Positions 1 through 28,510 of a stretch of 28,510 nucleotides of DNA are shown one piece after another. Position 1 is the first letter of the stretch, and each line of letters starts with the position of its first letter. This stretch comes from a virus. The translations under genes and the position numbers were made by a program. Where the stretch lies: positions 1 through 28,510 of IMG/VR virus record IMGVR_UViG_3300035698_020119, one strand, 5' to 3'. The notes under the pieces are model-generated. The model saw only the letters and a program-made list of their open reading frames with translations. It made no database searches and was not told the origin of the DNA.

Positions 1-2
1 AA

Positions 3-281
3 ATCATCCTTATAATGGATGATGATGAAAAATATATTTTTCCGTGATCAGCGGAAAAATTATGTATCTATAAAGATATAAAAATCTTTTCAATTCTCAT
101 AAAAAATAAATATGAGGATTTTGAAAATATTGAAACTATTGAAAATGTTTTCAATAATAAAGGTCGATTTTACAAAGAAATAACATTCTATACTAATCAA
201 GGAAATATCCTTATTATAAAGAAGTACTCGTCGTGGGACGAGCTTCAAATTGAAAAATATAGTTACATAGAAATAATATAG
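3..281 (+). CDS. Hypothetical protein, 5' end possibly cut by window edge
   Basis: Open reading frame without TAA/TAG from the left edge to a TAG at 279-281; one in-frame TGA (45-47) reads as Gly. The first ATG is at 15 (MDDDEKYIFPG), giving 88 residues, but the frame is open to nt 3, so the gene may start outside the window. The protein is charged and rich in Ile, Lys and Glu, without membrane segments or a motif I recognise. Its C-terminal part contains KKYSSWDELQIEKY. A perfect 9-bp inverted repeat (36-60) lies inside the first codons. It is the first of four plus-strand genes that converge on the late region. Function unknown. Confidence 0.6.
36..60 (+). repeat. Inverted repeat / hairpin near the left edge
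   Basis: Perfect 9-bp arms ATTTTTCCG (36-44) and CGGAAAAAT (52-60) around a 7-nt loop. It overlaps the start of the leftmost ORF, so it could be a structured start region, or the terminator of a gene left of the window if the ORF really starts later. No T-tract follows on the plus strand. Confidence 0.45.
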
Positions 282-290
282 TTTTATAAT
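262..290 (+). promoter_or_regulatory. Candidate sigma70-like promoter
   Basis: A consensus -10 box TATAAT (285-290) lies 15 nt before the ATG at 306, with a weak -35 GTTACA (262-267) at 17-nt spacing. In such AT-rich DNA a TATAAT can occur by chance; the spacing and position just before a gene are the only support. Confidence 0.3.
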
Positions 291-305
291 CTAATCTAAA
301 AAATA

Positions 306-632
306 ATGACAAATTTAAAAAATCTGACACCTCATTCAATTAATATTGTTGGAGAAAATGGGGAAAACATTCAGACAATAGAGTCTGAATGAAATTTAAG
401 ATTATCCACAGAAATAGTGGATGATTGAATGATAGGAGACATTCCTATCAACAAAACAAAATACTTAGAATGTCTTTTACCTGAAGAGGTAGAAGATACT
501 ATGTATATTGTTTCAATTTTTATTGCTCAATATGCAAAAGAGCAATGAAGAAAAGATTTTTTAATCCCTTGAGAATTAGTAAGGGATGAAAAATGAATAA
601 TAATAGGATGTAAATTCCTATCAAAAATATAA
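306..632 (+). CDS. Conserved small phage protein of unknown function (108 aa)
   Basis: Code-25 ORF with four in-frame TGA codons read as Gly. Its architecture matches a very widespread phage family of unknown function: an N-terminal NLTPHSINIV strand, a middle segment with a short IVDDGMIGDIPI turn, then YIVSIFIAQYAKEQGRKDF and a C-terminal LVRDEKGIIIGCKFL. The Gly in FLIPGELVRDEKG is a TGA, which supports the glycine reading. Usual family length is about 100-120 residues, so this looks complete. The start is the first ATG after a candidate -10 box, with an A-rich run but no Shine-Dalgarno. A terminator hairpin follows 8 nt downstream. Confidence 0.75.
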
Positions 633-640
633 ATAAATCG

Positions 641-673
641 AACCCTTTGGACTAGTTCAAGGGGTTACTTTTA
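641..673 (+). terminator. Intrinsic terminator after the 306-632 gene
   Basis: Stem AACCCTTTGG (641-650) pairs with TCAAGGGGTT (657-666), 10 bp with two G-U pairs and a 6-nt loop, followed by ACTTTTATTT. It sits 8 nt after the stop codon and before the next gene, so it probably ends or attenuates transcription here. Confidence 0.6.
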
Positions 674-696
674 TTTATATAATAACAAAAACAAAA

Positions 697-933
697 ATGA
701 TAAACAAAACATCACAAATCTTTTTCAACTTAATTACTGAATTTGATGGATTAACTCAAGAACTTGATTCATTACGACAAGAAGAAGATCAAGAAACTAA
801 TACTACTATTCAAAACAATATTCTTTTAGAAAGTTACAACACACGGACTAAAAGAACTAAAGTATTAGATGAAATTATTTCTTCATCTATTTCAGAAATT
901 TTATTATTAAATCAAAATAATAATGATGAATAA
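697..933 (+). CDS. Hypothetical helical protein (78 aa)
   Basis: ATG to TAA, readable in either genetic code because it has a single glycine (GGA) and no TGA. The protein is acidic and polar, rich in Glu, Asn, Leu and Ser, with predicted helical stretches (DGLTQELDSLRQEEDQE) that could form a coiled coil. The ATG is preceded by an A-rich run (AACAAAAACAAAA) and no Shine-Dalgarno. Its end overlaps the next ORF by 11 nt, suggesting translational coupling. No family recognised. Confidence 0.6.
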   Translation: MINKTSQIFFNLITEFDGLTQELDSLRQEEDQETNTTIQNNILLESYNTRTKRTKVLDEIISSSISEILLLNQNNNDE

Positions 934-1402
934 TGGAATATTAAAAAAAATGGAGTCGTTTTTATTAATAGAAACGACTTTCCTCTATATAATATTTTTA
1001 ATTAATAAGGATTTAATTATTAAACCTTTATATAATTTAATATTTATAGAAATGAATGGGTTAATATTTAAATCATTACTTCTTTTTACTATTTTTTATA
1101 ATTTATATTATAATAAAATATATATAAAAAATATCATAATAAATATTATAAAAAATATATATTTATTTTTAAAAAATATTTTTAATAAAAAAGAAAAAAT
1201 TGTTAATCATATTATAAAAAATAAATGATTATCACAAATTGAAGGTAGAAATTTTTGATTATCAATTGAAGAACATAAATTGATAATTCATTATTTTAAA
1301 ATGAGTTGATTATTAAAAAAATGAAGATGCAATAAAAATGTAATTGATTGAACGAAAGAACAATTGATAAATGTTTTGGATAAGTTGCCCTCCCCTTTTT
1401 AA
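923..1402 (+). CDS. Membrane protein of unknown function (159 aa)
   Basis: In code 25 this ORF runs through six TGA codons to a TAA at 1400-1402; a standard-code reading stops at 1228 and loses the C-terminal third. The N-terminal half is strongly hydrophobic, with two likely membrane segments (LLIETTFLYIIFLI and GLIFKSLLLFTIFYNLYY) and then a basic, Ile/Asn/Lys-rich stretch. The C-terminal 60 residues are soluble and charged (SQIEGRNFGLSIEEHKLIIH, then LLKKGRCNKNVIDGTKEQL). Two adjacent ATGs (923, 926) are possible starts. It overlaps the preceding gene and ends before a convergent terminator. Role unknown; a membrane anchor or lysis-related role cannot be excluded. Confidence 0.6.
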
Positions 1403-1427
1403 AATATATCACTTATTTTATAATCTC

Positions 1428-1459
1428 AAAATCCCTATATTATAGGGGTTTTATTTTTT
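1428..1459. terminator. Bidirectional intrinsic terminator at the convergent junction
   Basis: AAAATCCCTAT (1428-1438) pairs with ATAGGGGTTTT (1442-1452), 11 bp with one G-U and a 3-nt loop, followed on the plus strand by a T-rich tract. The stem's own A-run gives TTTT on the minus strand. It lies between the plus-strand unit ending at 1402 and the minus-strand late region ending at 1523. Confidence 0.7.
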
Positions 1460-1493
1460 AAACTTTTTTTAAACTATATTTTAAACTATATTT

Positions 1494-1525
1494 AAACTTA
1501 TACTAATTTGGTATAAGTTTTTTTA
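1494..1525. terminator. Terminator hairpin directly downstream of the endolysin gene
   Basis: A perfect 10-bp stem, AAACTTATAC (1494-1503) with GTATAAGTTT (1511-1520) and a 7-nt loop, starts 2 nt beyond the endolysin stop codon. On the plus strand it is followed by TTTT. On the minus strand a weaker TTTAAATATAG follows. The gap 1462-1493 also holds two copies of AAACTATATTT. Confidence 0.6.
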
Positions 1526-2077
1526 TTTCTCTCATCTTATATATTTGGCTATCTCATTTAATCTTTTTCTTATTTCATTATGTTCAACCCTATTCCAAAA
1601 GTATTTGCAAACTAGTTCTAGCATATCATATATTTTTCATTCTATTCTTTTCTTATTAATTTTTGACATACTAAATCTAAATCACGGACAACTCTTATAT
1701 GAAACGACTTCATTATGTCACATTATTTTTATATTAGGATACTTTGTTTTTAATTCCTTGATTAATATGATTAAACTATCATACTGCTCATCGTTTGGAT
1801 TTTCTTTATCAAAGTTACCACATAAACAGACTCAAATACTTTTTTGATTAATACCTCGATTTCCTGCATGATATCAAACCTCTTTTAAAGGTCTTGTTTT
1901 AATAACCTTACCTTTTCCTCAAATTACATAATGATAAGCTATATGGTATCAATATCAATTAGCTTTTGGATGCAGTCTTTCTTTATGAGTTCTATTAAAC
2001 GATTGTAAAGATTTTTCTATACTAATATCCTTACTTGTCAAACTGTGGTGGATTATTAAATATTTTATTCATCTCAT
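1523..2077 (-). CDS. N-acetylmuramoyl-L-alanine amidase endolysin
   Basis: An Amidase_2/PGRP-fold protein of 184 residues that should cut the amide bond between MurNAc and L-Ala and release progeny. The motifs line up with T7 lysozyme: YLIIHHS (His10 as zinc ligand), the substrate-pocket segment HIAYHYVIGG (Tyr48), HAGNRGINQKSIGVCLCG, and MGHNEVVSYKSCPGF with His121 and Cys130 as the other zinc ligands and Lys128. The Gly in this last PGF, and several others, are TGA codons. There is no signal peptide, so export would rely on the holin upstream. It is the last gene of the late region, followed by a hairpin. The C-terminal 40 residues are a basic helix beyond the catalytic domain. Confidence 0.93.
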
Positions 2078-2098
2078 ATTATTTTATTAAATAATAAA

Positions 2099-2398
2099 TT
2101 ATTTATTAATATTTTTTTGAATTTGAATAAGCATTCATTCTATATTAACTAATTTTGTTTTTATTTCTACCATATTTAAATCTGTTTTATGTAATTTTTC
2201 TATATTATCATTTATTCATTCTTGAAGTTTCTCATATTTGTCTAATAAATGAGTATGTCTTGTTTCCAATCTAGTAAGTTGATAACATATATCTTTATAA
2301 ACACTAACACCTTGAAAAACAAATCAAATTATAAAAAATAATAATCAAACTATTGTTCATACTTTTATATGTAAGCTATATTCTCTTAAAGTTTTCAT
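2099..2398 (-). CDS. Small membrane-anchored coiled-coil protein of lysis cassette (99 aa)
   Basis: One N-terminal membrane segment (residues about 12-32, GTIVGLLFFIIGFVFQGVSV) is followed by about 60 residues of heptad-like helix (LTRLETRHTHLLDKYEKLQE and on). Its ATG overlaps the stop of the holin-like gene (TAATG), and the endolysin starts 22 nt after its end. The topology of a single N-terminal anchor with a periplasmic or cytoplasmic coiled coil fits a spanin-like or holin-accessory protein, or an XhlA-like protein in the opposite order. The sequence does not decide among these. Confidence 0.65.
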
Positions 2399-3756: not shown

Positions 3757-5112
3757 TTAATTATATGTATTATATAAAGTTGTTATTTCAGTTTGTGTTA
3801 ATGCTCTGCCTGAGTAGTATTTTACGTCTGATAGTGAGCCTTCGTAAGTTATTAAGTTTCCCCCATCGTAAAATAAAGAACTTATACTTACATATGTTAA
3901 ATTCGACAAATCATTGAACCAATCTGATCCTGCTGACCTCGATTGTACAACAGAGTCAATATACATCTTCATAGTTGTCCCATCTTGAGTAATCACTACA
4001 TTATGCCAATTTCCGTCATTAACAACATCATCCCCAAGAATATTTGAAGTTATACTAGCACCTGTTTCACCTACCACGTTGACTTGAAATGCTCCAGGGT
4101 TGATTTGAATATTTAACACATTGTGAGTAGTACTCCCCTCTGCAATAGAAAACATAAAACCAGAGTCAGTTGTATTAAACCACAAACTAATACTCCCCTT
4201 AGTGTCATTCCCATAATCAGTAATAAAATCACTAGAGCTTAAATTAACAAAATCACTAGTACCATTAAAACTCATAGCCTTATCAGCTTGTCCCTTTCTG
4301 TCTGTTGTAAATGTTGTTCAAGTTAAAGTTCAATCATTTCAATTTGGTGTTTTATCTCATATTACCGTAGCCGATTTTAAACTTTCTTGACTAAGACTCC
4401 AATCACCAACTAATCATTTGCTTAAACTTCAAGCCTTAAAACTTCATGGATAAGTTTCATATAAAGTTGTTATTTCAGTTTGACTCAATGCTCTATCATA
4501 AACTCTTGCATCATCAATATCTCATTCATAATAATACGTTACTGTTGTAAATCTTCAAAAAGCCATTCAACCTGTAATGTTTGCCGTTTTTGTTGTATCT
4601 GTAAGAGCCAAAACTCAATCAACAAAAGTTTCTCAAGTAGTCGTTGCACTCGTATATCTATAAACTATATGATGCCAACCAATTGCCGATAGTCCTGTAT
4701 TGATTGTATTTCAATATAATCATGCTTGAATTAATCAAGCATTAGTTCCAATATAAGCCGACTCGTTTGGATTCGCTCAATCTCATAAAGTAAACCCTCA
4801 ATACCTTGCTGCTGTATTTGTTCAACTCATCCATACTGACATAGTAAAGTCTGTATTTCAATTGATTGGGTTTCAAGTAATTAAAACAAAATCACTTGTT
4901 CAATTAAAAGTTAATGCTTTATTAGTTTGTCCCTTTCTATCTGTTGTGAATGTAGTTCAAGTTAAAGTTCAATCATTTCAATTTGGTGTTTTATCTCATA
5001 TTACCGTAGCCGATTTTAAACTTTCTTGACTAAGACTCCAATTACCAACTAATCATTTGCTTAAACTTCATGCTTTTAGATTTGATGTTCATGTATTTAA
5101 TTTTATTGTCAT
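3757..5112 (-). CDS. Tail/adsorption protein with two LamG (concanavalin-like) domains
   Basis: 451 residues with two tandem laminin-G/concanavalin-A-like lectin modules, each introduced by the same 49-residue lead (SLSKGLVG..WSLSQESLKS, then a TTFTTDRKGQ..KA stretch). Module 1 spans about residues 65-225 and module 2 about 280-451. Each contains the WHHIVY / NWHNVVIT strand and ends RAL(S/T)QTEITTLY. LamG modules usually bind glycans, so host-surface recognition is likely. Module 2 (3757-4275) uses no TGA for its 16 glycines, whereas the rest of the gene uses TGA for about 29 of 38. This points to a module imported from a standard-code source. A standard-code reading would recover only module 2 as a 172-residue ORF. 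Confidence 0.85.
4285..4431 (-). repeat. 147-bp direct repeat, copy 1 (lead of LamG module 2)
   Basis: Near-identical to 4924-5070, in the same frame and offset 639 nt (213 codons). It encodes the lead segment before LamG module 2 (SLSKGLVGDWSLSQESLKSA and on). Only a handful of substitutions separate the copies, so the duplication is recent or maintained by gene conversion. Confidence 0.85.
4924..5070 (-). repeat. 147-bp direct repeat, copy 2 (lead of LamG module 1)
   Basis: Partner of 4285-4431. The two copies flank LamG module 1, so recombination between them would delete or swap exactly one lectin module. A shorter match of about 23 nt also recurs at the module ends (around 3775 and 4462). 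Confidence 0.85.
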
Positions 5113-5807: not shown

Positions 5808-7760
5808 TTAAAATATAAACCATCAAGTTCAATCAGACTCTAAACTAAGAGTATCATAATCTCAAGCGATTACCGCTGTTGCAGCTCAACTTATTGTCTC
5901 ACCTCATTCAGTATCAATAGTAATATTATTACTGCTTGCATTTCATCAAGTATCAACAATATGTATTGTTCTTCAAGCTGTTATTTGTGCTGTTGGAAGT
6001 GTTAAACTTGTCACCGCTGCTGTAGCTGTATATGAAACATTCAAGAAATAATCATCTAAAGTTATATCATAAGTTGCTGCTCCTACATCTGTTACGTTAT
6101 GTATCTGTCATCAGAAAGTAGTTATATAAGTTTGAGTTGCTTCCGTAATTCTTAAACACTCAATACCTCAAGCTATCAAACTTAATTGATCATCTGCCGC
6201 ACTTCAAACTCAAGTATCAGAATCGGTTATTCAAGGAACTATATTAGGATTTGTTGCCGATTTGTTTTCATGTAATAATGCCGATTGATTTCAATTTGTT
6301 GATCATAATGTTGTTGAACTTATTTGCCATGTACTTGTTCAAGCTATTGAAATTCTCAAAGAATCATCAGTCGATTCATAAAATCAAGTATCTCAATCTC
6401 AGAAAGCAAAAGTTGGAAAGGCTTCAACTCAAAAGGTTCAACTAGGATCAACAATCATTTGTAAAGTATCTACTCATCAAGCTCAATCGCTCAAAGCTTT
6501 CAACTTCATTATGTTAGTTGAATTTACCATAAAACTATAACTTTCTTCTGTTCAGTCTGATGCACTTGAAGAAACAGGCATATTAACCATTGTAACCGCT
6601 CCACTATCTTCCTCAAATTCAAAAGTTCATAGGTTTGTTAATGCCGCTCCGACTTCTATTTCATCACTTGTAGTTCATTTGAATCAATTTAAAACTCAAG
6701 TTCAAGCATTATCAACTCGTCTAATTCGTCAATCATTTATTAATTGAATAATTTCTGCATATAAATTAGTTCAATATATATTATCCCAATAACTCGCAGA
6801 ACTTCAAAGATTTCAAGTCGTATTCATTATAATATCATCTCAAGCCGTTTTTGGTGAAATTTCAGTTCAAGTCCTATCAAATAAATCTTCGATTAATACT
6901 GCTGCATCTACATATCAAGTAGTTGCAATTGTTGTATTATTAGTTCAAGGAGCTTGTGTTGCTCAAGTTGTAAGAGTATTTACCGTTCAATTTAAATCTC
7001 AACTAAATGTTGTTGCTCATACACTTGTCAATCAACTAGGTGTTAAGGTAGTACTTATTACTCAACTTCAATCAGTTTGTAATATTCAATTTAAAGTATT
7101 AAGTTCTGAAAAAATATAACTTCATTTTGTTCCGTCGCTTGTAGTTTGAAAAGTTAAATCATCTCAAGAGGCTGTTCATCAAATTGCTGTTTGTCAACCG
7201 ACTCTTCAAGCTAAATGAAATTTAGCCGTATCAACTTCAGCAATTGCAGCTTGTACATTACTTGCAATAATTAATCAAGCAGGAGTAAAAGCTACATCGT
7301 CTGCCTCAACTGCTTCAATAGCTATCCAAGCAGATCAATCTCGTATATAATTTTGAGACTCTCAAACATCTAAAGTAATAGTTTTTACTGAATCAATTAT
7401 ATCAATTGAATTTGTTGAAGTATCATTATTTACTATAAGAAATTTTTTTATATTTGTTGCGTCTGTCGGTGCTTGTAATGTCTGACTATTTCAGGCTCAA
7501 GTTAATGTAATTATTACTCAATCATAGCTATCAATATTTGTTGTACTAGTCGCAACATTTAAAGCTGGATCAGTTACGTTTGTAAAATCTGTACTTGAAC
7601 TTCCTCATAATTTAACGTAAGCAGATCAGTTCCAAATATATAATCTACTAGTCGTTTCATCAATATAAATTATTCATTCATTTCAAGTTGCAGGAAATCA
7701 TGCAAGATTTGTATAAAATGCAATTTGTTGTCTTTTTGATAAACTTATTTTTCAAAACAT
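5808..7760 (-). CDS. Large tail fibre protein (650 aa)
   Basis: One continuous code-25 ORF with dozens of TGA codons. It begins with a compact domain (LAGFPATGNEGIIYIDETTS, LYIWNGSAYVKLG) typical of fibre-attachment regions, then has repetitive Thr/Asn/Gly beta strands, including LNGTVNTLTTGATQAPGTNN and ATTGYVD, common in phage fibres. Around residues 500-540 it carries a conserved fibre element (NPNIVPGITDSDTG, then ADDQLSLIAGGIECLRITE). The last 55 residues (GRTIHIVDTGGNASSNNITI, ending GTGWFIF) are a classic C-terminal fibre domain. Role: host attachment. It starts 11 nt after the end of the small upstream gene, on the ATG at 7760. Confidence 0.88.
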
Positions 7761-7771
7761 TTTTTTAAAAG

Positions 7772-8062
7772 TTATATAGTTAAAATTCTTACATCAGTTC
7801 AAGCAGTATCACTTATTAAACTAATATTCTGTAACTCTGATAAATCAAAACTTACAGACTCTCAGTATTCTACTGGAAAACCTCAAGCAACAGTTGATGC
7901 AATTTTTGTACTTTCTAAATAAATTACAGTTCAAGAAGTAATGTTTTTAATAATTAATCCTTTTTCAGCAGGATAATTTGCTTTTTCATCTATTGCACTT
8001 TGTTGTGCTTGAGTAAGTTCATCATATAAAAATACTGTTGCAACTCAAATAGTTAATTTCAT
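7772..8062 (-). CDS. Small virion-type protein between tail fibres (96 aa)
   Basis: The sequence has an N-terminal strand (LTIGVATVFL), a helix (ELTQAQQSAIDEKANYPAEK), then strand-rich remainder (GLIIKNITSGTVIYLEST; SVSFDLSELQNISLISDTAG). The last part resembles small beta-sandwich virion proteins that accompany fibres in siphophages. No domain can be named with confidence. It sits 11 nt upstream of the large fibre gene and 127 nt downstream of the Gly-rich protein, so it may be co-translated with the fibre. Four glycine codons are TGA. Confidence 0.6.
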
Positions 8063-10045: not shown

Positions 10046-10712
10046 TGTTTAATAATTTATTTATAAAGATTTTATCTACTTTTGTTGATTCTTCTAATTT
10101 ATTAGTATCAATTTTTCAATTATCAAGAAAATCATTTATTATATTCTTAGATCATTCTAATAATGTTTCATCTTTTGACATTTTAACAGCCTCAACTACT
10201 CATTTACTTACTCCTGTTAATCTTTGTATTAATTCTCATTTAGCTTGATTGCTTAAATTCCATTCCCAATATAAAGGTTCTTCTTCTTGATACTGTTTAT
10301 TTGTTATATTGCCTTTATTGTTTTTTATTATTTGATTTCTACATTTTTCATATAAATCTACTTCATGCATTTTTGCTTTTATATCAATCTCTTGTCAACT
10401 CATATTGTTTTCTATTTCAGCTATATCTAAATCAGAATCTTCTTTATTTTTATCTATTCTTTCTTTTTTCCTTTTATTTCTTTCATATTCAATCATCATT
10501 CTTTTAAGTTCAGATAAAGCAAATCTGTATTGCCTCATAAGAAAGTGGTATTGATGAGCAGGAAAATTTCATTCTTTTTTAATTGTAAATTTCTCTATAG
10601 AAAAATCACTTTTTAATTGAGCCATTTCAAGAAACTCTCAATGTAATTCTTTTAATAAAGAATTTAAAGTTTTTCAATTTTTATCTGAATTAATTTCTTT
10701 TAAATTAAACAT
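10038..10712 (-). CDS. Hypothetical helical protein (224 aa)
   Basis: Largely alpha-helical and charged. It includes a His/aromatic segment (NFPAHQYHFLMRQYRFALSE), a basic helix (LKRMMIEYERNKRKKERIDK), an acidic stretch and YQEEEPLYWEWNLSNQAKGE near residue 150. A helical C-terminus follows. There is no membrane segment or signal peptide. It lies among the adsorption genes between the kelch-type protein and a small protein, with an 8-nt overlap downstream and 16-nt gap upstream. A tail-fibre assembly or chaperone role is possible from location only. I do not recognise the family. Confidence 0.6.
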
Positions 10713-10728
10713 TATATTTTATTAATAA

Positions 10729-11637
10729 TTAAACTCAAACTCATGAACTCCTATTTACTGTTAAATCTCATCTATCTAATGAGTTTCAACTCGTTGTTGT
10801 AATATCTATATAATCAATTACATTTAAATATCCTGAAGTATATCATCAACCAAAAAATCAATATGTTGTTCAAGATATTCAAGTAAGGTATCTTTTAGTT
10901 TCTTGTAAATTTCACTTATCTAAAGCGTTTCAAGTTGTAGTAGTAACATCTATATAATCAATTACATTTGAATTACTTGAAATAAGTCATCAACCAAAAA
11001 ATCAATATGTTGTTCATGTAATTCAACATGATCAATATCTAGCTAATGTTAAATTTCATTTATCAGAAGCGTTTCAACTCGTTGAAGTAACATCAATATA
11101 ATCTACTACATCTGAAACAGCCGAAACATATCATCAACCAAAATATCAATATGTCCCTCAAAATACTCATCAAGTTAAATGTCTTCTTGCTACAGACAAA
11201 TCTCACTTGTCTGTAGCATTTCAACTCGTTGAAGTTATATCTATATAATCTACTATATTAGTATTTGTTGCAGATGCATATCCTCAACCAAAAAATCAAT
11301 ATGTTGTTCACGATACTCAACCCAATAAACTTCTAGCTACTGTTAAATTTCATTTATCAGAAGCGTTTCAACTCGTTGAAGTTATATCTATATAATCTAT
11401 TACATCTGAATCGCTTCAAGTTGTTCAACCTCCAAAAAATCAATATGTTGTTCAATATGCTCATCATAAATTACTCCTAGATATTGATAAATCTCACTTG
11501 TCTGTTGCATTTCAACTCGTTGAAGTAACATCAATATAATCAATTACATTACTTACTGATCATGTAGTTCATCCTCAAAAAAATCAATATTCTGGAGTAA
11601 CTACTCAAAATATATATGGATTAATTATAAAATTCAT
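10729..11637 (-). CDS. Kelch-like six-bladed beta-propeller tail protein (302 aa)
   Basis: Six imperfect repeats of 47-50 residues follow the pattern YGFFGGG, a variable loop, NVIDYIDIT-TSGNA-DKGDL, then AR and a variable loop with GTTYG. A GG turn, a DYID strand and a basic-aromatic AR turn match the kelch/galactose-oxidase-type propeller signature. Closely similar repeats (FGGG, IDY, GNATDFGDLT, R) are frequent in marine phage tail proteins. Six blades fit a closed propeller, so the protein probably binds receptor or forms a distal fibre knob. Most of the repeat glycines are TGA. The start overlaps the upstream stop by one base (TAATG). Confidence 0.85.
10729..11637 (-). repeat. Six tandem coding repeats, period 141-150 nt
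   Basis: The segment TCAACCAAAAAATCAATATG (plus-strand reading) and related versions recur at spacings of 144, 144, 150, 141 and about 150 nt (anchor positions 10846, 10990, 11134, 11284, 11425, about 11575). The spacing is a multiple of 3 and matches the propeller blades. Spacers and repeats are both coding, so this is not CRISPR. Confidence 0.9.
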
Positions 11638-12995: not shown

Positions 12996-14141
12996 TTAAT
13001 AATAAATTTTTATTTGATCTCAATCTGTATTTACAATATTATCTCAGTCTGTATTTAATAAATATGCCTCATCATATACTAAAGTTGATGTTTCTATCTT
13101 AGGTGTTCATACAACTTCCTCTCAAAAAGACAAATATTCATCTAAATATAAAACTACTTTATTTGAAGAATATCATAATCTTATTATTTGCATATTATTA
13201 TTACTAGAACTATTGAAATAAGATAAATTTAATATTTTTACAGTATTTCAAGGATTTATTGTAACAAAATCATATTTATCATTTAAAGTAATTGTATTTT
13301 TATTTTTAAAATCTTTATTTTCTTGTATAAAATTATCTCAAAATTCATTTGCTGTTGAATTAGTTACTAATCTAGTATTTTGTGTACTCTTTTCTTTATA
13401 TCAATAAGTTGTTATACTTGTCATATCATTATATTCAGCATTTCAGCTTTTCCGTTTTAAATATAAATTATTAATTATATTTTCGCTATTTTCTTCTAAA
13501 GTTATTCTTTCAATATCTTTTTGAAAAGTTAATGTATGACTTGATGTTATTGGTTTTAATTTAAAATAAACTTGTCAATCTGCTCATATAAACCAATAAA
13601 AGTTAGTCGTACTCTGAATTAATTTAATTGCATTATATGCAGTAGTATAATCAAAATCCACAGTAACAGAAGTTCCATAATTATCAATATTACCTCAAGT
13701 ATAACTTAATCGACCTCAAGTATATAAAGTATTAAAATAATCAATAATATTTTTTATTATATCTGCAGGTTCACCTCATTCCAAAAATGTATAATCTGTT
13801 CAAGACTTATATATTATATTATTTAATAAAGTTACTAATCATAAACAATTTAATTTAATAGTTTCTGAATTTGTATCTGCTAATCTAATAATTTTTGAAA
13901 TCATTCAAGTATATATTAAATTTCAAGTTTTATTATTTTCATCAAATTCATATATTTTTATAAAATCTGATAGATTAAAATTTGTATTTCAAAACTTTAA
14001 ATCTAAATCAATATCAATATTACTTTGTCATCAGTTTAAATTATTAGTAAACTCAATAGAACTCATAATTTTATCAGGATTTATTACTCATTGCAACACT
14101 CCCAATTGATTATAATATTTAATTTGGTGTTGTTTAATCAT
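12996..14141 (-). CDS. Tail hub / tail-associated protein (381 aa)
   Basis: Position between Dit and the fibres, and fold pattern, point to the siphophage tail hub (Tal-like, gp27-type). The N-terminal ~120 residues are beta-rich (INPDKIMSSIEFTNNLNGGQ; YEFDENNKTGNLIYTGMISK), typical of hub domain 1. Next are LEGGEPADIIKNIIDYFNTL and DFDYTTAYNAIKLIQSTTNF YWFIGADGQVYFKL, a motif seen in hub domain proteins. The remainder includes EENSENIINNLYLKRKSGN and an OB-like segment (TINPGNTVKILNLSY). No C-terminal hydrolase is present. The start ATG (14141) overlaps the Dit stop by one base (TAATG). Confidence 0.78.
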
Positions 14142-14968
14142 TATAAATAAGTTTTTTTATGTAAAATAACTATATCAACATCAAAAGTTCAATCAACTGT
14201 AAAATCTATTGAATTAACTCATGGGTTTAATCGTCTAAACACTCAACTATAATCTACTGCTGTTCAGTTTAAAGTAACTTCTTTTGTTTCTCAATCTAAA
14301 ATTAAAACATCACTATTTGAAATATTTTCATCTATTGTCATTGTATATCAATCAATATCAAAAGTTACTTCTGTTACAGAAACTAATCAAGTATTAAATC
14401 AAAATTGTACCCTATCATCTGCTTTATAACTTCAATAATTAGTAACTTCAATTGTTCAACTAATTATTTGACTCAAAAATTCATCAGACTGATATGATTT
14501 TACTTGCCGATGCGGATCAATTGTTGAAAAAGTTAACTCTATTTCTTGTACAAAAGTTATATTGTAATATTGTCTATTAAATATTAAAGAAGTTACACTA
14601 GCTAGACAACTTCTAATTGTTCAATTTACATTTATATCAAGATCTCATTCAGTTTTATATATATTTTCTTTGAAATCATCAATTAAATCATTTAATTCAG
14701 TAATTGAATTATGACTTAAAGATATTTGTAAAACAATTTCTTTTGACCTAAAAAAATGACCAAGAACTCAACCTCAATCTAGCAAAGGTTTGTTAAAAGT
14801 TGACCATTCTATACTTCATAAATCATCATAGTTAATATTTCTTAATCTAATGGTCGAACCATTGTTTAAACTATATCAATCAAAAACAAAATCATCTTGC
14901 GTTCAAGTTCATACCAAGATTGTTCATCAATTAAGTGTAGATCAATTTAATGTTTTTTGATTTAACAT
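14141..14968 (-). CDS. Distal tail protein (Dit)
   Basis: 275 residues. The N-terminal domain has the Dit-type beginnings of LRNINYDDLGSIEWSTFNKP and DGGGVLGHFFRSKEIVLQIS, then a helix LNDLIDDFKENIYKTEGDLD followed by IDPHRQ. The C-terminal galectin-like part ends FRRLNPGVNSIDFTVDG, the family's usual L-x-x-G-x-N-x-I sequence with that Gly encoded by TGA. Dit forms the hexameric ring joining the tail tube to hub and fibres. The gene lies right after the tape measure gene (8-nt gap). ATG at 14968. Confidence 0.88.
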
Positions 14969-19224: not shown

Positions 19225-20427
19225 TTAATATCAAGTTGCATTATCGTTTAATAATAATACTTCTATTTGTGCAGAAGTATCAACATCGTATTGTCATGAG
19301 TATCACATAGTTTGCTTAATTATATCATTTGCCGAATCTGTTTTTGTCCATTCTTTAAATCATACTTTCATAAAATCAATAAACATTGAAGGAAAAATTT
19401 GACTAGCTACTAAAGCGGTTACATCATCATTTATTAATTCAAATCTAGTAGCTTTTTTATCGCTATCAATTACATAATTTCTCAAAGTAACTGAATTATA
19501 TAATGCTTCAAAATCTCATTCAGTTGTAAATTGTTGATTATGTAGACTATCAATGTCAGTACTTCAAAAACATTGTATATCAGTAAGATTTTTATTAATT
19601 GCTAATCTAAAGTTTTGCATACATACGGCTGTCGCTGCATTCAAAGCTCATTCAGTTGCTGCAAAATATACATTTGAATCCATTGCTCTAAATGGATTTT
19701 CAGCAGAATAACTAGGTATTTGAGCAGATGCTGTTGCCATTTGTTGTCCCCAATATTCAGCAGAAAATTTTACATAATCCCCAACTTCAGCGGATAATTC
19801 CAAAGTATTCACCATTCAATAAGTTGATGAAACTGCTCCAACTGGATCATCATCATATAAAGTGTATGTTTGATGACTATTATCATTATTTCTACTAAAG
19901 AAATGTCATTTAACTGCAGAAGTTGCTGTAACTCAAACAGTTGCTGTCCGTGTTCAATTTGTCACCGTATCAGCATTTCATAAAGTTCAACTTGTTGTTG
20001 AAACAAAATAATAAGTTGTCAGTGTTCCTCATAAACTTAATATTTTTTTAATTTCTCAAATCCATGTTTCACTTGCAGGAGCTCAAACATAAGCTATATC
20101 TCATCTTGCAGGAGTTCATCACGACGGACTAGGAAGTGTTATACATTGAACTTGATCATAACTTCATAATGCTCAATATAATAAATGTCAAATAAAATCA
20201 TCTCTTGTAATTCCTCATAAAGTAATCTTTGAAAAGTTTTTAGTAGTTGCAGAATCATAAACTTCATCAATTACTCAATATCAACTTGCATCTATTGCTT
20301 CCTCAAATTCAGGTATTAATACTCAAGTTTCTTTTGGAATCCGTACATCAGCGACTGCTATTGTTCAAGCTGTTGACTCTTTTCATAATCAAACTGCGGA
20401 TAATCTTCATATATGTTCGTTTGCCAT
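19225..20427 (-). CDS. Major tail tube protein (400 aa)
   Basis: 400 residues, starting MANEHIGRLSAVGLGKESTA and continuing VADVRIPKETG, the beginning of siphophage tail tube proteins that polymerise into hexameric rings around the tape measure. A conserved stretch HFFSRNNDNSHQTYTLYDDD, then TLELSAEVGDYVKFSAEYWG, is typical. C-terminal half has GDFEALYNSVTLRNYVIDSD and ASQIFPSMFIDFMKVGFKEW. Its length suggests an added surface domain. An AAAAGGAAAATG start provides a weak Shine-Dalgarno. Located upstream of the decoration-type protein and chaperone, as expected. Confidence 0.85.
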
Positions 20428-21150: not shown

Positions 21151-21498
21151 TTATCATAATTTTAATTTGATTACTTTATTAAATATATCTCAAATTTTAT
21201 TAATATTTTCAGTATAAGCTCTTTTTAAATAAAATTTTCTATCAGGATTTTTCTTGTTTTCGTATTCTCTTCTTCTAGAATAAATAACTGGACTTCAAAT
21301 CGTAGTTGTTAATTTATTTAATCTTGTTAAATCACTTGTGATACTTCTTCTTAAAGTTCAAGTTAAATAAGGAGCATTTATTTTAGCTTGATTTTGTATC
21401 ATTATAGTAGTTTGTAATAATCCTTTTTCTATTCATTCTATTAATGCTCCCTCAAGTGGAGTCGCTCTTTTTAAATTATAACTTATTTCTAATTTCAT
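21151..21498 (-). CDS. HK97 gp10-like head-tail protein (115 aa)
   Basis: The hallmark APYLTGTLRRSITSDLTR lies at residues 42-59, matching the P-x-x-TG-x-LRRSI motif of the HK97 gp10 family, with the invariant Gly47 encoded by TGA, not tryptophan. The rest is a helix (ALIEGIEKGLLQTTIMIQNQ) before and a short basic part with REYENKKNPDRKFYLKRAYT after it. These proteins take part in head-tail joining/tail completion. Usual length is about 100-150, so it is complete. Start ATG at 21498, end 25 nt before the tail terminator gene. Confidence 0.85.
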
Positions 21499-21512: not shown

Positions 21513-21809
21513 TTATAAACCGTCAGATTTTTGAATATATATTATATTATAATCAGATATTATTCCCTCTCGTTCTTTTGTTTCTTTTACTATATAAGTA
21601 ATAGAATCAACAATTATTTTATCTCAATTTTTTATTCAGTCATATTCAGTATATAGTTTTTTATAATCATACATAGTTGATCAATCAAATCAATCTCAAG
21701 CACTTATTGGTTGTATAGTACATTTAAATGTTCATATTAATCAATAACTTGCAACATTTTTAACACTTCTATTTCTTGTATATAATGTTCAAGTTGATTT
21801 ATAAAACAT
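21513..21809 (-). CDS. Head closure / stopper protein (98 aa)
   Basis: Small beta-barrel protein (YKSTGTLYTRNRSVKNVASY; FKCTIQPISAG), with EYDGIKNGDKIIVDSITYIV and KETKEREGIISDYNIIYIQK at the end, typical of SPP1 gp16/HK97 gp7-like head-closure ('stopper') proteins. Located between the connector and the gp10-like gene, the canonical position. It overlaps the connector stop by 11 nt. Five or six TGA-Gly codons. Confidence 0.72.
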
Positions 21810-22620
21810 TTATTTTTTTATAAAAATTAAATAAATTTTGAAAATTTGTGTAATCATTTTCATCTCGTCATCAAAATGTAATACTTTCATCTCATAATCT
21901 GTAAGATTTTATTCAAGTTGATTTTCTTTTATTATAATATCAACTAATTAATAACATTTGTAATTGAATTATATCATTAGGTATTGTATCATTAACTCAA
22001 CCTTGAGTATTATTTAAACTGCTTTCTGTTCAAGTAAAAGTTTCTGAAACATAACTTGCCGTAATATTAAAAGTATCAGTTGCAACTCAAGATATTGTAT
22101 AAGTTCAGTCATAATTTACGGTTCAAGATAATGTTATACTATTTCAATCAGCATAAGTATTAGCTGTTAATGGTATTCAAACAATTCAATCTCAATTATT
22201 AATTGCCACAGCATTATCTAGTAAAGCATCATTATCCCTATTATATCAACTAGTATAAATATAATCAACATAATTAAAATCTAAATCGGTTAAATAATCT
22301 GAGATATCTTTTATAATAATTTTTCTATTATTAACTATTTTATAATCAGTATTCAAAACTCAAGTATATGAAGTTCAATTAATAGATACCATTGCAGTTA
22401 CTGGTCGATTTTTTACCCGACAAGCTCAATCAGTATATAAATAACTTAAATCAATAACCTCTGTATAATTAGCTTGATTAAAACTATCTATTTTTAAAAT
22501 TCTATTCAATAAATAATAATTTGATATTAATAACTGATTTAAAATATCATCTGTTGATGATCAAGTTATTCATAAATAAATTTTTAAATCTGATAATTTA
22601 GTATAATTTAATATAGTCAT
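21799..22620 (-). CDS. Head-tail connector (adaptor) with inserted beta domain (273 aa)
   Basis: The N-terminal 75 residues resemble the gp6/gp15-type adaptor: LNYTKLSDLKIYLGITGSST, then DDILNQLLISNYYLLNRILK. It is followed by a beta-rich region (GACRVKNRPVTAMVSINGTS) and C-terminal NDIIQLQMLLISGYYNKRKS and a final helix (NFQNLFNFYKKINVL). An additional ~55-residue segment (GDGIVGIPLTANTYADGNSI, then TLSGTVNYDGTYTISGVATD, TFNITASYVSETFTGTE) is a small Ig-like domain seen in other phage connectors, probably decorating the neck. Overlaps the stopper gene by 11 nt. Confidence 0.72.
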
Positions 22621-23049: not shown

Positions 23050-24156
23050 TTATATAGTAACATTAATTCACATTCATGCTGTTTTTCAAAGTCAAGCCTT
23101 ATCATAAGCAAGAGCCATTCAAAATTCCATTGTAGCATAAAGTACAATACCTTTTCAAGGTACTTTGTAAGGCTCAATTTCTAGTGCTTGTCAGAATCCA
23201 AATTGAAAAGTCGGTTTGTAAACTAATCAGAATGATCAGTAACTATTTCAAGTTGAAGTGTGTACCAATCAAGTTGCTAATGCTAATGCAGGCCAATCTC
23301 TTTGAACAGTTGCATCAATTCAGAATATTTTTGCCAATACTCATTTTTGAATAGTTGCAGCAGGTCAAAATTTATCTACTGTAAGAACTGCATCAAGTAA
23401 CATAGCTTTATTATAAACATTTGCAGGCAAAATCCATAAAAGATTCTGTAAATCTGCTTGATAACCAGAATCTAATTTTCCTAAAACTGAAATAAAATCT
23501 CATTCAGATAATGTTCCAATATCAACTGTATTTGTATCTGCTAAAACCATATCTCTCATTCAATTATTATTTTCTAGGTAATAATTTCAAGAAGGTGTTC
23601 AACCGTCATCATTAACATTATTAGAAGTAGTAGAATCAGCATTCATAAATAATGCATCAATTGTTCTTCCTGCACTTTTATTTATTCTATCTCTTACAAT
23701 ATTTTCTAATGCCATAGGTGCATAATTTAATTCTCTTTTTGAAATAGCAACTTTTAAAATGAACATACCTTGAGTAATAGTGATTTCTCAAGTTTCAGGT
23801 CATTCATTAGCAGGTGTTGCAGGAGTTGGTGCTCAAGTTGTCCATTCAGAATTTCAAGAAAATAAATCAGCTTCTCAAACTATTGGTAATGTTACTGATT
23901 TTCAAAGATTAGTTCAATGATAACCAGGTAACATATTAAATAAAATTGAATACTGAGGGATCAAATCAAGCATAGGGTCTAATTGTAACTCATCAGGAAC
24001 AAGTTCCTCTCAAAAACCTGTATTAGTTGTATGCATAACTTCATTCGTTTTTGTTTCCATTTCTACTTGTTTTTCTTCTTCTTTAAGAAATTTTTCTGTA
24101 TCTTGTCAACATAATTCTTTTGATCTTTTAATTGCTTCTAATAATCTTTTATCCAT
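23050..24156 (-). CDS. Major capsid protein, HK97 fold (368 aa)
   Basis: The N-terminal ~42 residues are charged helix (KRSKELCGQDTEKFLKEEEK), a short scaffold-like delta arm. Then TGFGEELVPDELQLDPMLD starts the mature-type HK97 fold, followed by KSVTLPIVGEADLFSGNSE, GMFILKVAISKRELNYAPM (E-loop/spine region), DALFMNADSTTSNNVND, LGKLDSGYQADLQNLLWILP and the A-domain end QFGFGQALEIEPYKVPGKG with IVLYATMEFGMALA. Highly abundant protein; TGA used for many of its glycines. Directly downstream of the protease in the usual portal-protease-capsid order. ATG at 24156 preceded by an A-rich run. Confidence 0.92.
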
Positions 24157-24175: not shown

Positions 24176-25171
24176 TTAAATATTTTTTAACTTTTTAGTT
24201 AAATTAGTATATGGTGTTGTTTTTACAACTGGTTTTTCAAAATTATATCAAGTTTTTACTACTACTTTATCAATTCAATTTTTCATATCATTAAACTGTT
24301 TTAAAATAGTATTAAATTGCTCAACAATTTCTATTAGTGTTTTTTCTAATCATTCAATTTCTTCCTTTTGTAAATCAAATTTTTCAGAAAATTCTTTTAT
24401 TATAGAATCGTTTTTATTTCAAAACTCTTTTATAATTTCTTTTATATTAATTTTGTCTTCTTCAACGATATTTTTTTCATTACCGTTTTCTGTAACTTCA
24501 TCAGAATTTTCAGAATCTTGACTTCAATTATCATTTTCTTTTACTACTTCTTTAATTTCTTCTTCTTTTTCTTTTTCCTCTTCTTTAATTTCTTCTTCCT
24601 CTTCTTCTTCCACATCTTTAATTTCTTTAATTTCTTTAATTTTATTTTCTTTGATACAATTCTCTATTGATTTAACCAAAGCATAAGGATTAGCAGGAAC
24701 AGAAACTAAACTTATTTCATATAAATCTAAATCTTTTATTGTGTATTCATATTCCACAAGTTCTCAATTTTTAATTATTTCTTTAACATCTAAATCTTTT
24801 ATTATATATCATATAGAAAATGTTTTTAAAACACCGTTTTTTAGTGCAGAAAAAATTCAATCTTGATCTTCTGTGATGTTAGCCTTAATATATAACCCTC
24901 TAGGTTTTATACTTGCTTCTGTTACAGTTCAAATTGGTTTGTCTCTTTTATGTTGTAATAAAATTATTGGATTTTTCATATACAAATTTAATGCAGATTC
25001 AAAAGCCTTTGGGTTTACTATATCATTTGTTCTGTCTTTATCCTTAGTACTTGCCCACCCCTCTATCTCAATTCAAGTAGTTTCTCAATTATCACCTTTA
25101 ATTTCTTTAATAGATTTTTTTTCGCATGTAATTTGAAAGAAATCTTTATCTTTTTTTAGTAATTTTTTCAT
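24176..25171 (-). CDS. Prohead protease with C-terminal scaffold-like domain (331 aa)
   Basis: HK97-type (U35/S78) capsid maturation protease. Residues about 30-165 carry the motifs: GWASTKDKDRTNDIV, ILLQHKRDKPIG with catalytic His74, KTFSIGYIIKD with Ser119 (its Gly121 is TGA), and DLYEISLVSVPANPYAL with the acidic residue Glu152. Beyond about residue 180 comes a very acidic low-complexity stretch of E/K-I-K-E repeats, then a coiled coil (LQKEEIEGLEKTLIEIVEQF). This half should act as the internal scaffold and be degraded during maturation, so the protein combines protease and scaffold, with no separate scaffolding gene seen. Confidence 0.88.
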
Positions 25172-25193: not shown

Positions 25194-26009
25194 TTATAAT
25201 ATTTTGTATAACATTGTACATCTACACCTTACTCAAGTTGGTGCAAATCAACTGTTTGTAGCTTGATAAAAATAATCAATATCTTTTCGTCATTTATTTT
25301 CGTTTTCTGTATGTTCAGGACGCACTCTTGCATCTTGCACGGTTTGCCATTTCTTTTCTACCTGTCATCAAGCATCTTTATATTTTTTCATTGGTAACCA
25401 GTTCCCATATTCATAAGCCTGTCCCATTTCAGTAACTGCTATTAATTGTGCTCTATTTTTATCAAACAATACACTATTTATTTTTACTATTTCATCCCTT
25501 AATTCTCAATATGTCCAATTTTTATCATATCATTCTTTTATCTTCTCAATTATTTTTAATTTAGTTGTCCTGCTTATACTTCATTTATAATCACTTAAGT
25601 GTTGTACTCAAAATATTTCTTTATATTCTAATCATGCATTACTATTATATATTATTCAATTTTTTTGTAACTTCTCTTTATTTTTATTATATGACCTTTT
25701 ATATCATTTATCAGTTATCTTTTTTATTTGATTTTTCAATTTCTCAATCATCTTATAAACACCCATTTTTGACCAAAATCATCATAAAGGTTCTCAAGTG
25801 GTATCAGGTGGAAGTTCTTTTTCAAAATTTAATGATTGTTGTATATTTATAAGATAATTATAAGACTGTAATACTTTATTTGGATTATTAAATAATTGTT
25901 TTAAATTTCTTAATAAATATTTTTCTTGTTTTCTAAAAGAAGTAACCATTATGTTTTGCATACGTACCTCATTTCTTAATATTCTTCTATAGTTTGCTGG
26001 TATCGGCAT
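25194..26009 (-). CDS. Mu gpF-like minor head protein (271 aa)
   Basis: An N-terminal helical part (MPIPANYRRILRNEVRMQNI; FNNPNKVLQSYNYLINIQQS) is followed by YKEIFGVQHLSDYKGSISRT and the Mu gpF/SPP1 gp7 signature at residues about 221-265: KKWQTVQDARVRPEHTENEN, then a variable piece and GFAPTGVRCRCTMLY, i.e. W-x-T-x-x-D-x-R-V-x-x-x-H followed by C-R-C. In this family it is a minor head protein bound to the portal, required for DNA delivery. Several glycines are TGA. The HNH fragment overlaps its first 23 nt. Confidence 0.88.
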
Positions 26010-26540
26010 CTTTATTATATTTCCAAATAAATCATCAAGCTGTTTTTCTTTTTCATTTACAGACTTTACAAATATGACTATTATTTATTCCTATTTTTCT
26101 TTCTACATCATTCATACTATTCCAAATTTTAATTAATTTTCATTCTTTTGTATATTGAATAATTTTCTTAGATAAATGATTATTTATTCAAAGTCTTCAT
26201 AACATATTTGGTTTTCTTCATAATTCTTTAAAAGAATGTAAATGATTTTCTGAATAAGTATTCCATTCTAAATTATCAACTTTATTATCTTCTTTATATG
26301 ATTTATTGTTCTTTTATTTTCTTTATTTTTTATAAAAGCTTTTCAAACTAATCTATGAATTAATGTTTTTATACTTTTTCAATTTTTACATAAATCAATT
26401 TGTAAATATCATGATGTACATTTTAAAGATTTCAATATTTTTCAACAATGTCATTTTCTAGTTAAACTATATACATTTCATAAATTAGATACTTTATACA
26501 ATCATTCATATCATTTTATATCTTTTCGTATTTCTTTCAT
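25987..26540 (-). pseudogene. Frameshifted HNH homing endonuclease (NUMOD4-HNH-NUMOD1)
   Basis: Two frames make one endonuclease. The first frame (26540-26268) gives KEIRKDIKGYEGLYKVSNLG and NVYSL, a NUMOD4 domain, then LIHRLVGKAFIKNKENKRTI NHI, the start of the HNH. A shift at about 26293 (sequence after NHI reads KKIIKLII then TAG) breaks it. The other frame (26292-25987) continues DNLEWNTYSENHLHSFKELG, the second half of the HNH, then KKIIQYTKEGKLIKIWNSMN and HICKVCKGKRKTAGGFIWKY, a NUMOD1-type DNA-binding end. A one- or two-base deletion explains it. The 3' end runs into the gpF gene. Free-standing, between the portal and minor head genes. Confidence 0.8.
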
Positions 26541-26632
26541 ATTTTTATAGTAATAGTATAAAACATATATTAATGGAAGGAACAATATCTATTACATATT
26601 ATCCCAATTACGCCGCTAAGCAACCTTTTTTT
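26541..26632 (-). other. Untranslated gap between portal and homing endonuclease
   Basis: 92 nt without an ORF. It begins at the portal stop (A9 run), then holds the GC-richest short segment nearby (GGTTGCTTAGCGGCGTAATT). Such a spacer could be part of an old intron or the insertion edge of the endonuclease, but no group I intron core or splice element was recognised. Confidence 0.35.
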
Positions 26633-27868
26633 TTATTCATTAAAATCAATTATAGGTTCGATTCAAACTTCTTCCAATAAAACTAAACTACTTTTTATTA
26701 ATGGAATATTACTATTTTCAGAGTTGAAAGGATCTTGTCATCTTTCTTCTCTTACTTCATCAATAGTTTTTAATCAAGATTCAATGTCAAGTCTTTGATT
26801 TATTATAATAGTTTCTGTATCTTCTGTTGATTCTCAATTAGATTTTAAAGTATATTTATCATATATTTGTGGGAAAAATTTAGCTGTTAAACTATTCATA
26901 ACAAAATTAAAATCCTTTTCGTATGGTCTTATTGTTCATTCAATATATTCTGATTTTAATTCTTTTCAATTAGCAAAATTAACATTATCAACATATCATA
27001 AAATAGATTTAGGAACTCAAAAGGTTGCAGCAACTTTTTCAGTTGTCAATTTCCTTTGATTAATAAATTCCATATCTCTTTGTGAAACACTTAACACCTT
27101 AATATCTTTAATTCATCAAGCAATCATTGTTTTATGAGCATTATTTGTTCATTTATACTCTCTTTCAAATTGTTCTTTAGCATTTTTCATTTCTTCATCT
27201 GACAAATTATCGTCTAACATTAATATTGAATTTGGAATAGCGTTGTTTTCAAAAAATTTATAATTACTTTGTGAACTTTTTAAATCACTTAAAGCATCTC
27301 GTATAATTCAATACATTAATCCCATTCAATTACTTGCATTATCAATATCTTTTTCAAATTGAAAATAACATAATTCATCTTTTGAATAAGTTTTACTTTT
27401 ATGTCATGAATATTGTCTAAATCAAGTAATATTTCAATTAGTATCATATAATTTACTCATTGATCTGCTATCTAATATTTGTAATCAATTAGATTTTTTT
27501 GTGAAAGGATTAATTGTTGATATTATATAAACTTCTCAACTAATTAAATATTGTTTAAAAAATTCTTTTTTAAATCAAAATAATGTTGGATCAGAATATA
27601 TAGCAATAATATTCTTTTTTTCTTCTGGAGAAATTTCAACAATATTTTCTTTTTTATCATAAATATCAATTCCATTTTTTGCTACTGCTAATGAAATCTT
27701 ATTAATTGATTGTCTTATATCAGCATTTTTTTTATATAATTCAAAAAACACTTGTAAATTAATTACAACTGTTTCTGAACTCCGATCACCATAGGAAATA
27801 TAATTATCATTATAACTTTTTTTTAAAGGATTTTTTGAAATTTTTATATCGTATCAAAAGATTTTCAT
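26633..27868 (-). CDS. Portal protein (411 aa)
   Basis: HK97-type portal (PF04860-like), the dodecameric DNA gateway at the capsid vertex. Segments that identify it: VFFELYKKNADIRQSINKI near the N-terminus, FKKEFFKQYLISGEVYII, SKDELCYFQFEKDIDNASN GMG, LMLDDNLSDEEMKNAKEQFE, and the conserved QRKLTTEKVAATFGVPKSIL GYVDNVNFANGKE with a helix running to FVMN. The Gly in FGVP is TGA. C-terminus INQRLDIESGLKTIDEVREE RGQDPF is typical too. Start ATG at 27868 follows a candidate promoter and terminator, so it begins a head transcription unit. Confidence 0.92.
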
Positions 27869-27897
27869 TTAATATTTTTATAAAAATAATTAATCTT

Positions 27898-27925
27898 CTT
27901 ATACTGTTTTTTTAAAAAAATGCAA
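27898..27925 (-). promoter_or_regulatory. Candidate promoter for the head-gene unit
   Basis: On the minus strand TTGCAT (27925-27920), a 16-nt A/T-tract spacer, then TATAAG (27903-27898), ending 29 nt before the portal ATG. It lies immediately downstream of a strong terminator. Close to a sigma70-type consensus, although AT richness makes chance matches common. Confidence 0.5.
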
Positions 27926-27935
27926 ACAATAAAAA

Positions 27936-27964
27936 AAAGGCTAAAAAATAGCCTTTCTTTTTTT
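27936..27964. terminator. Strong intrinsic terminator between small acidic gene and portal
   Basis: AAAGGCTA (27936-27943) pairs with TAGCCTTT (27949-27956), an 8-bp perfect stem with a 5-nt A loop (five T on the minus strand). It is followed by a T8 run on the minus strand (27938-27931) and by CTTTTTTTT on the plus strand, so it should work in both directions. Confidence 0.8.
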
Positions 27965-28015
27965 TATACTCTACATACAGTAATAACCGATTAAACTCCT
28001 ATCAATAAGCCAATT

Positions 28016-28345
28016 TTATTTTTCAACTTCTTCAACTTCCTCAACTTCTTTTTCTCAAAAGATTTTTACTTCAGGCAAATTATCAATATCTTCAATTTTT
28101 TTAGGTAAAACAATTTCTGTCTTTATGTTTGTATTTGCTTCGTCCATAATATCAACTCCTGCATTAAAAATAGTTACTTGTTTTTCAATTTCTTGTTCAA
28201 TTCATTTAATTTGTCATTGTAGTTTTCTAATAGATGCTAATCAATTATTCATAAGAACCAACCATTCTTTTGAATTAACATTTCTTATAATTTCTTCTGT
28301 ATAACTGAAATTTAATTCATCTACCTTTTTATAGTTTTTCCTCAT
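28016..28345 (-). CDS. Hypothetical acidic protein between terminase and portal (109 aa)
   Basis: The N-terminus is basic (RKNYKKVDELNFSYTEEI), the middle is a helix with QGQIKGIEQEIEKQ, and the end is acidic (EVEEVEEVEK). All Gly in the middle helix are TGA. No membrane segment. A small helical protein in this place can be a head or terminase-accessory protein, but no family is recognised. It is followed by the strong terminator and preceded by the terminase gene with a 25-nt gap. Confidence 0.6.
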
Positions 28346-28370
28346 ATTATTTAATATTAATTATAAAACT

Positions 28371-28510
28371 TTAACTACTACTAATACTTCCAAAATATAC
28401 TCATTTCTTTTTCTTCTTAGCTAGTTTCATTATTCATCAATATCTAACTGCATCTATACAATTATGAACATGTAATCATTCAACATAATAACAATATTCT
28501 CATTCAATTT
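28371..28510 (-). CDS. Terminase large subunit, C-terminal end (partial)
   Basis: Only the last 45 or so codons lie in the window; the gene continues past the right edge. The frame gives IEGEYCYYVEGLHVHNCIDA VRYG, which matches the nuclease-domain end of phage large terminases (D/N-H-x-x-D-A-x-RYG), and ends in a Lys-rich tail and SISSS. The position upstream of the portal supports this. The reading needs TGA as Gly at several codons, including the one in VRYGG. The protein packages DNA into the prohead with ATP. Confidence 0.7.

Follow-up and report, generated by a model that had tools for sequence, protein, structure and literature searches.

The genetic code of a tailed phage is considered here on the basis of the virus record IMGVR_UViG_3300035698_020119 (28,510 bases, G+C 25.9%), the whole of which was analysed and is referred to as the window. 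The codon columns of its genes fully support the reading of TGA as glycine and show that both CGA and CGG are read as tryptophan. The phage shares this three-codon code with a family of phages found in environmental sequences and would leave the decoding to its host, which is most likely one of the Absconditabacteria. To this joint reading we assign a probability of roughly 0.93.

Codon usage was counted in 37 hand-picked genes, 34 on the minus strand and three on the plus strand (two of them, 10729-11880 and 11637-12986, share 244 bases). TGA makes up 633 of their 815 glycine codons (78%), and the genes end in TAA (35) or TAG (2). A preliminary description of this DNA had noted TGA within nearly every minus-strand gene, which is the case for 33 of the 34; two of the three plus-strand genes also contain it. 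Stop-to-stop frames of at least 100 codons, used here in place of Prodigal genes, cover 0.19 of the window with three stops and 0.89 with TAA and TAG only. The same description held that the genes are cut under code 4 as well; this is wrong, because table 4 reads TGA as tryptophan and leaves them uncut. The five glycines that it had named (in PYLTGTLRRSI, FSIGY, LNPGVNSI, FGVP and CPGF) are all encoded by TGA, and its choice of glycine over tryptophan is borne out by alignment columns in recoded relatives and in standard-code homologues. With TGA masked and BLOSUM62 scoring, 47 window TGA sites aligned to standard-code proteins (14 matches in 67 loci) gave +12.5 nats for glycine, -13.9 for arginine and -35.7 for tryptophan, glycine being the majority residue at 15 sites. 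Against the recoded family, 196 window TGA sites gave +166.6 nats for glycine and -148.5 for tryptophan. For all recoded genomes against standard-code homologues, 729 TGA sites scored +448 for glycine and -514 for tryptophan, some antisense frames being included. When only two partners, G003 (the full record of locus L003) and L001, are used, TGA scores serine (38.4) above glycine (26.0), because masking removes the conserved glycines, which are TGA in the window and its partner alike; the standard-code partners and the larger family resolve TGA as glycine.

Of the 8,976 codons counted, just 29 are CGN. The first sign that CGA and CGG depart from arginine was that TGG tryptophans of the relatives L001 and L003 lie opposite many of the window's CGA and CGG codons, for example in VIWDALSD of the portal protein and ADVWIPK of the tail tube protein. 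The window and G003 were compared through 21 reciprocal-best pairs, on the coding strand, with TGA, CGA and CGG masked on both sides. Opposite 19 window CGA/CGG sites, G003 has tryptophan at eight, phenylalanine at three, tyrosine at two, leucine at two, and lysine, aspartate, serine and arginine at one each. Tryptophan is found opposite none of 118 AGA, AGG, CGT and CGC sites (arginine 67, lysine 22) and opposite 16 of 23 TGG sites. The frequency of tryptophan at CGA/CGG thus differs from that at the other arginine codons (Fisher p = 3e-8), and the comparison with TGG gives p = 0.12. Very few of the window's CGT/CGC sites were aligned to relatives. CGA by itself, scored against the family, favours tryptophan (12 sites; W +14.3, R -6.0), while the six CGG sites in the columns with G003 comprise two tryptophans, two phenylalanines, one serine and one arginine.

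Individual sites follow the same pattern. In the portal gene, the CGA at codon 190 is opposite a TGG tryptophan in both close relatives, and the CGG at codon 29 is opposite phenylalanine and tyrosine. Three CGA/CGG codons of the head-tail connector gene face tryptophan, tyrosine and phenylalanine in G003; two CGG codons of the tail tube gene face TGG tryptophans there, one of them next to an alignment gap, as does the CGA at 7343 of a tail/baseplate gene, in the motif [CGA]DGSAW. The CGA at 26528, in a NUMOD4 motif, falls in a column that is tryptophan in both of the standard-code homologues found. About 25 of the 72 tryptophan codons of the window are CGA or CGG, contrary to the preliminary statement that TGG alone encodes tryptophan. 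The assignment of the phage to code 25 holds for TGA and fails for the code as a whole: NCBI table 25 is incomplete for this phage, because CGA and CGG are also read as tryptophan. The proteins of the window are read with TGA as glycine and CGA and CGG as tryptophan, and every other sense codon is standard within the limits of the tests.

The same departures were found in related phages. A capsid alignment search of viral contigs gave 16 loci, with best-segment identities of 47-63% to the window capsid. By a stop-frame coverage threshold, L003 and 14 of the 15 other loci are TGA-recoded; the remaining one, L037, holds merely 168 bases of capsid, and its coverage rises from 0.66 to 0.92. The family pool consisted of 11 recoded representatives, from which pairs above 90% identity had been dropped. 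Five loci were left out as presumed near-copies (L024, L026, L027, L028 and L035; demonstrated for L028 against G009 only) and five as short or doubtful (L034, L037, L056, L057 and L071). In this pool, 170 CGA sites have tryptophan as majority residue at 97 and arginine at two (W +278.4, R -116.2), and 70 CGG sites have tryptophan at 31 and arginine at one (W +88.7, R -46.5). CGT and CGC remain arginine (157 of 200 and 43 of 58 sites, respectively). As a control, 40 standard-code loci were masked in the same way, and arginine was obtained at 182 of 363 CGA sites (tryptophan at one) and at 52 of 103 CGG sites (tryptophan at two). These 40 were the non-recoded members of the 79 terminase kin L039-L117 that reached 8 kb in length and 0.75 in three-stop coverage. 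When the 61 sense codons and TGA were tested, CGA, CGG and TGA were the only departures from table 11. This test let partners vouch for their own codon, and it was repeated with the partner-side codon left out; 56 of the 62 codons then agree with table 11, and the clear departures are still CGA, CGG and TGA. The further codons that do not agree are ATG and TGG, which cannot agree because they have no synonyms, and CAA, a near tie (E 400.4, Q 398.1). These results show that the window belongs to a family with a common code, in which TGA is glycine and CGA and CGG are tryptophan.

Several observations weigh against this reading. Non-aromatic residues stand opposite some of the window's CGA/CGG codons, namely the single lysine, aspartate, serine and arginine and the two leucines given above. 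Three window CGA sites are readable against standard-code homologues, with majorities of tryptophan, aspartate and glutamate, and no CGG site is. In the pooled standard-code test, CGA scores best as tryptophan, with a value that is negative (-2.5, against -14.6 for arginine), and the majorities at its 38 sites are led by lysine (7) before tryptophan (6); antisense frames are included, and the support is weak. Among single genomes, tryptophan is found at none of three CGA sites in G010, at none of four CGG sites in G004 and at one of seven in G011; neither G003 nor G001 has an aligned CGA site, and in L028 and L029 CGA scores tyrosine slightly above tryptophan. Finally, the window and several of its relatives are fragments, and a tRNA gene may lie in their missing parts.

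One family member, G016 (L130-L131), has a low share of TGA among its glycine codons, with 64 TGA against 120 GGA in locus L036, yet its CGA is tryptophan; it may have come to the code more recently. In the terminase tree, the four recoded rows lie on one side of a branch (92/85). A single origin is only suggested by this, as long branches meet there.

No tRNA gene was found in the window, in G003, in L001 or in 14 further loci, and an Rfam tRNA search gave none in 20 records (control, 14 of 14). The tRNA-Gly(UCA) that the preliminary description proposed to look for was thus not found in these sequences, nor was a tRNA of any other kind. A search of 19 records for RF-1 family proteins likewise gave none (control, 10 of 14). 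Because neither a tRNA nor a release factor was found in the records, decoding is attributed to the host: the phages appear to rely on a cell that already reads TGA as glycine and CGA and CGG as tryptophan. Such a host would supply a glycyl tRNA(UCA) and tryptophanyl tRNAs for CGA and CGG, and would not terminate at UGA. In Absconditabacteria, TGA is reported as glycine, CGA and CGG as tryptophan, and CGT and CGC as arginine, with tRNA(UCG) and tRNA(CCG) as the decoders (PMC8629427); the three-codon code is repeated for Absconditabacterales in a second paper (PMC13092985). Since exactly this code has been reported for them, the prediction narrows to the Absconditabacteria. Of the two hosts named in the preliminary description, this one is retained and Gracilibacteria is less favoured, CGA as tryptophan being reported for the former (PMC8629427). 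A portal-alignment search of genome contigs gave, among the matches listed, one Planctomycetota contig, which is standard-coded. Integrases in six of 13 family records suggest that part of the family may be temperate.

Four other explanations deserve consideration. Under plain code 25, TGA would be glycine and CGA and CGG still arginine, with a host in Gracilibacteria or Absconditabacteria. Phages with alternative codes in these hosts have been described in this way (PMC10746230), and the scarcity of CGN codons is in keeping with it, but the CGA/CGG columns are tryptophan and not arginine in the window and in the family, and the identical procedure returns arginine for standard-code phages. 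Provided that the alignments do not err in a one-sided manner, the columns between the window and G003 and those of the family reject plain code 25, and we consider it very improbable. A second alternative is code 4, with TGA as tryptophan, as it is in hosts of the Mycoplasma type and in TGA-recoded phages; the frames would agree with it, being open under code 4 too. It is refuted by the TGA columns of the family and of the standard-code homologues, where glycine is found, and its probability is close to nil.

It could also be that the code is right but is that of a Gracilibacterium, or of some lineage not yet described in which these three codons are changed too. CGG may be read as tryptophan, without CGA, in some Gracilibacteria (PMC8629427), and a link of the family to any host was not found here. 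In the available part of the same paper, however, CGA as tryptophan is reported for Absconditabacteria only, and CGA alone gives tryptophan in the window; such a host seems unlikely to us, though it deserves to be kept in mind. Finally, the phage might recode itself in a standard-code host, with TGA delaying late genes, as described for other TGA- or TAG-recoded phages (PMC10746230). Neither a suppressor tRNA (20 records) nor a release factor (19 records) was found, two of the three plus-strand genes also hold TGA, and two sense codons are changed as well, all of which makes self-recoding highly doubtful. Host decoding in Absconditabacteria is thus the reading that we prefer.

The three-codon code may also bear on how genes enter this family. 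The adhesin gene at 3757-5112 encodes two tandem LamG modules between near-identical arms (203 nucleotides at 90% and 45 nucleotides at 87%). In the core of the first module 14 of 19 glycine codons are TGA. The core of the second is free of TGA and lies within a TGA-free run of 17 glycine codons (adhesin codons 274-451); no such run occurred in 20,000 shuffles of the 815 glycine codons, the longest shuffled run being 10. Third-position G+C is 0.25 in adhesin codons 283-451 and 0.13-0.16 in the remaining gene. Because it is TGA-free, unlike the rest of the genome, the second core is read as a recent import: it is probably a receptor-binding domain from a standard-code source. INPHARED gave six matches (Synechococcus and Vibrio phages), about 30% identical. 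We consider it reasonably probable that the family depends on a three-codon host code, that imported genes adapt to it codon by codon, and that the TGA-free core has been caught early in this process.

The gene content of the window is that expected of a siphophage, in agreement with the preliminary description, and was identified by Pfam and phrog matches (Table 1). From right to left on the minus strand, the portal, an HNH region and the Mu gpF-like, prohead protease, HK97-type capsid, connector and neck genes are followed by tail tube, tape measure, Dit, further tail proteins, the LamG adhesin and an amidase. The HK97-type siphophage set of portal, prohead protease, capsid, tail tube, tape measure and Dit is complete and in order, and the window covers the structural and lysis genes of a siphophage of HK97 type. 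No large terminase was seen before the sequence stops, upstream of the portal. The window is taken as a fragment because in the relatives L001 and L003 the terminase adjoins the portal. The portal is 61-63% identical to those of two recoded relatives, and a PDB search with the prohead protease gave no match. The HNH/NUMOD endonuclease region is split over two frames, 26268-26585 and 25987-26205; L003 has an unbroken HNH/NUMOD endonuclease elsewhere, after the Mu gpF gene. Direct repeats, mostly 144 nucleotides apart, lie at 10691-11549 on the minus strand within the gene of a glycine-rich FGGG-repeat protein; this gene has 54 TGA.

Table 1. Features of the window, listed from right to left, with the matches or codon counts on which they rest
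Feature	Position	Strand	Match or codon count
Portal protein	26633..27868	-	Pfam Phage_portal 2.1e-40; 20 TGA (Gly)
HNH homing endonuclease region (NUMOD4)	25987..26585	-	Pfam NUMOD4 2.6e-12
Mu gpF-like head morphogenesis protein	25194..26009	-	Pfam Phage_Mu_F 1.4e-11
Prohead protease (Peptidase_S78)	24176..25171	-	Pfam 3.4e-17
Major capsid protein, HK97 type	23050..24156	-	Pfam Phage_capsid 6.9e-6
gp6-like head-tail connector	21799..22620	-	Pfam Phage_connect_1 1.4e-7
Tail completion / Neck1 protein (gp10-like)	21151..21498	-	phrog_5 3.6e-10
Tail tube protein	19225..20427	-	Pfam Phage_tube_2 7.5e-10
Tape measure protein, 925 aa	14977..17754	-	phrog_1538 3.6e-10
Distal tail protein (Dit)	14141..14968	-	Pfam SPP1_Dit 5.7e-6
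Tail/baseplate protein, 66 TGA	5808..7802	-	phrog_20556 1.1e-11
Tail adhesin, two LamG modules	3757..5112	-	Pfam Laminin_G_3 6.9e-24
Core of second LamG module, TGA-free	3808..4245	-	TGA at 0 of 15 Gly codons
N-acetylmuramoyl-L-alanine amidase (endolysin)	1523..2077	-	Pfam Amidase_2 9.1e-27
Gene of unknown function, 5 in-frame TGA	306..632	+	phrog_21731 2.5e-17

Some relatives carry further elements. In G009 (L123:10300-12342) there is a diversity-generating retroelement, in which a tail gene ends in a variable repeat and is accompanied by a template repeat and a reverse transcriptase; 17 of the 21 mismatches between the repeats are at template adenines. RVT_1 matches are also present in G008 and G015. 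The 64-kb record of G009 (L122-L125) contains a pair of related phages in head-to-tail arrangement, both of which have a portal, a capsid and an integrase, and represents either tandem prophages or an assembly joint. An intein-like insert, whose match to Pfam Intein_splicing (7.5e-6) falls below the cut-off, splits the large terminase of L001 (827-2422); the terminase of L003 lacks this insert. G003 encodes an RtcB RNA ligase (L003:2994-4262; Pfam 3.7e-109).

If the three-codon reading is right, gene callers that use table 25 misplace arginine at about one third of the window's tryptophans (25 of 72), and the three codons together identify the host more finely than "code 25" does. The family would also provide an independent gene set for testing the reassignment in Absconditabacteria, and a receptor-binding domain seems to have crossed the code barrier. 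Should dependence on the host code prove true, correct proteins could not be made in standard-code cells, and code-25 cells in which CGA is still arginine would fail as well. Because incoming genes must adapt codon by codon, the counts of TGA and of CGA/CGG would serve to date an import.

Phages and prophages of Absconditabacteria and Gracilibacteria that use code 25, with TGA as glycine, have been described from IMG/VR and GVD by spacer match (PMC10746230, mBio 2023), and members of the window family may be among them. Like this family, they derive from IMG/VR, have dense in-frame TGA read as glycine, and show much higher coding density when TGA is a sense codon, as the window does. Their genes were called with table 25, and the main text of that paper does not contain the terms CGA, CGG or Shulgina; in the phages described here CGA and CGG are tryptophan. 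Standard-code HK97-type siphophages, which make up most of L039-L117, have terminases 46-52% identical to that of G003; unlike the window, they keep TGA as stop and read CGA and CGG as arginine (40 tested). The window portal is only 21-24% identical to standard-code portals, and INPHARED gave no phage that matches the window capsid at E 1e-5 or the first 25 kb of the window by megablast. No report of a phage that reads CGA or CGG as tryptophan was found in the open PMC literature. Reassignment of a sense codon in phages is not itself new, since two phage assemblies with AGG as methionine have been reported (PMC8629427). With the Absconditabacteria themselves (PMC8629427, eLife 2021) the phage shares the three-codon code, CGT and CGC as arginine, very low G+C and AGA as the main arginine codon; that code is described there for the bacteria and apparently not for their phages. 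TGA-as-glycine phages of these hosts are already in print, and what appears to be novel here is the reading of CGA and CGG as tryptophan in phages.

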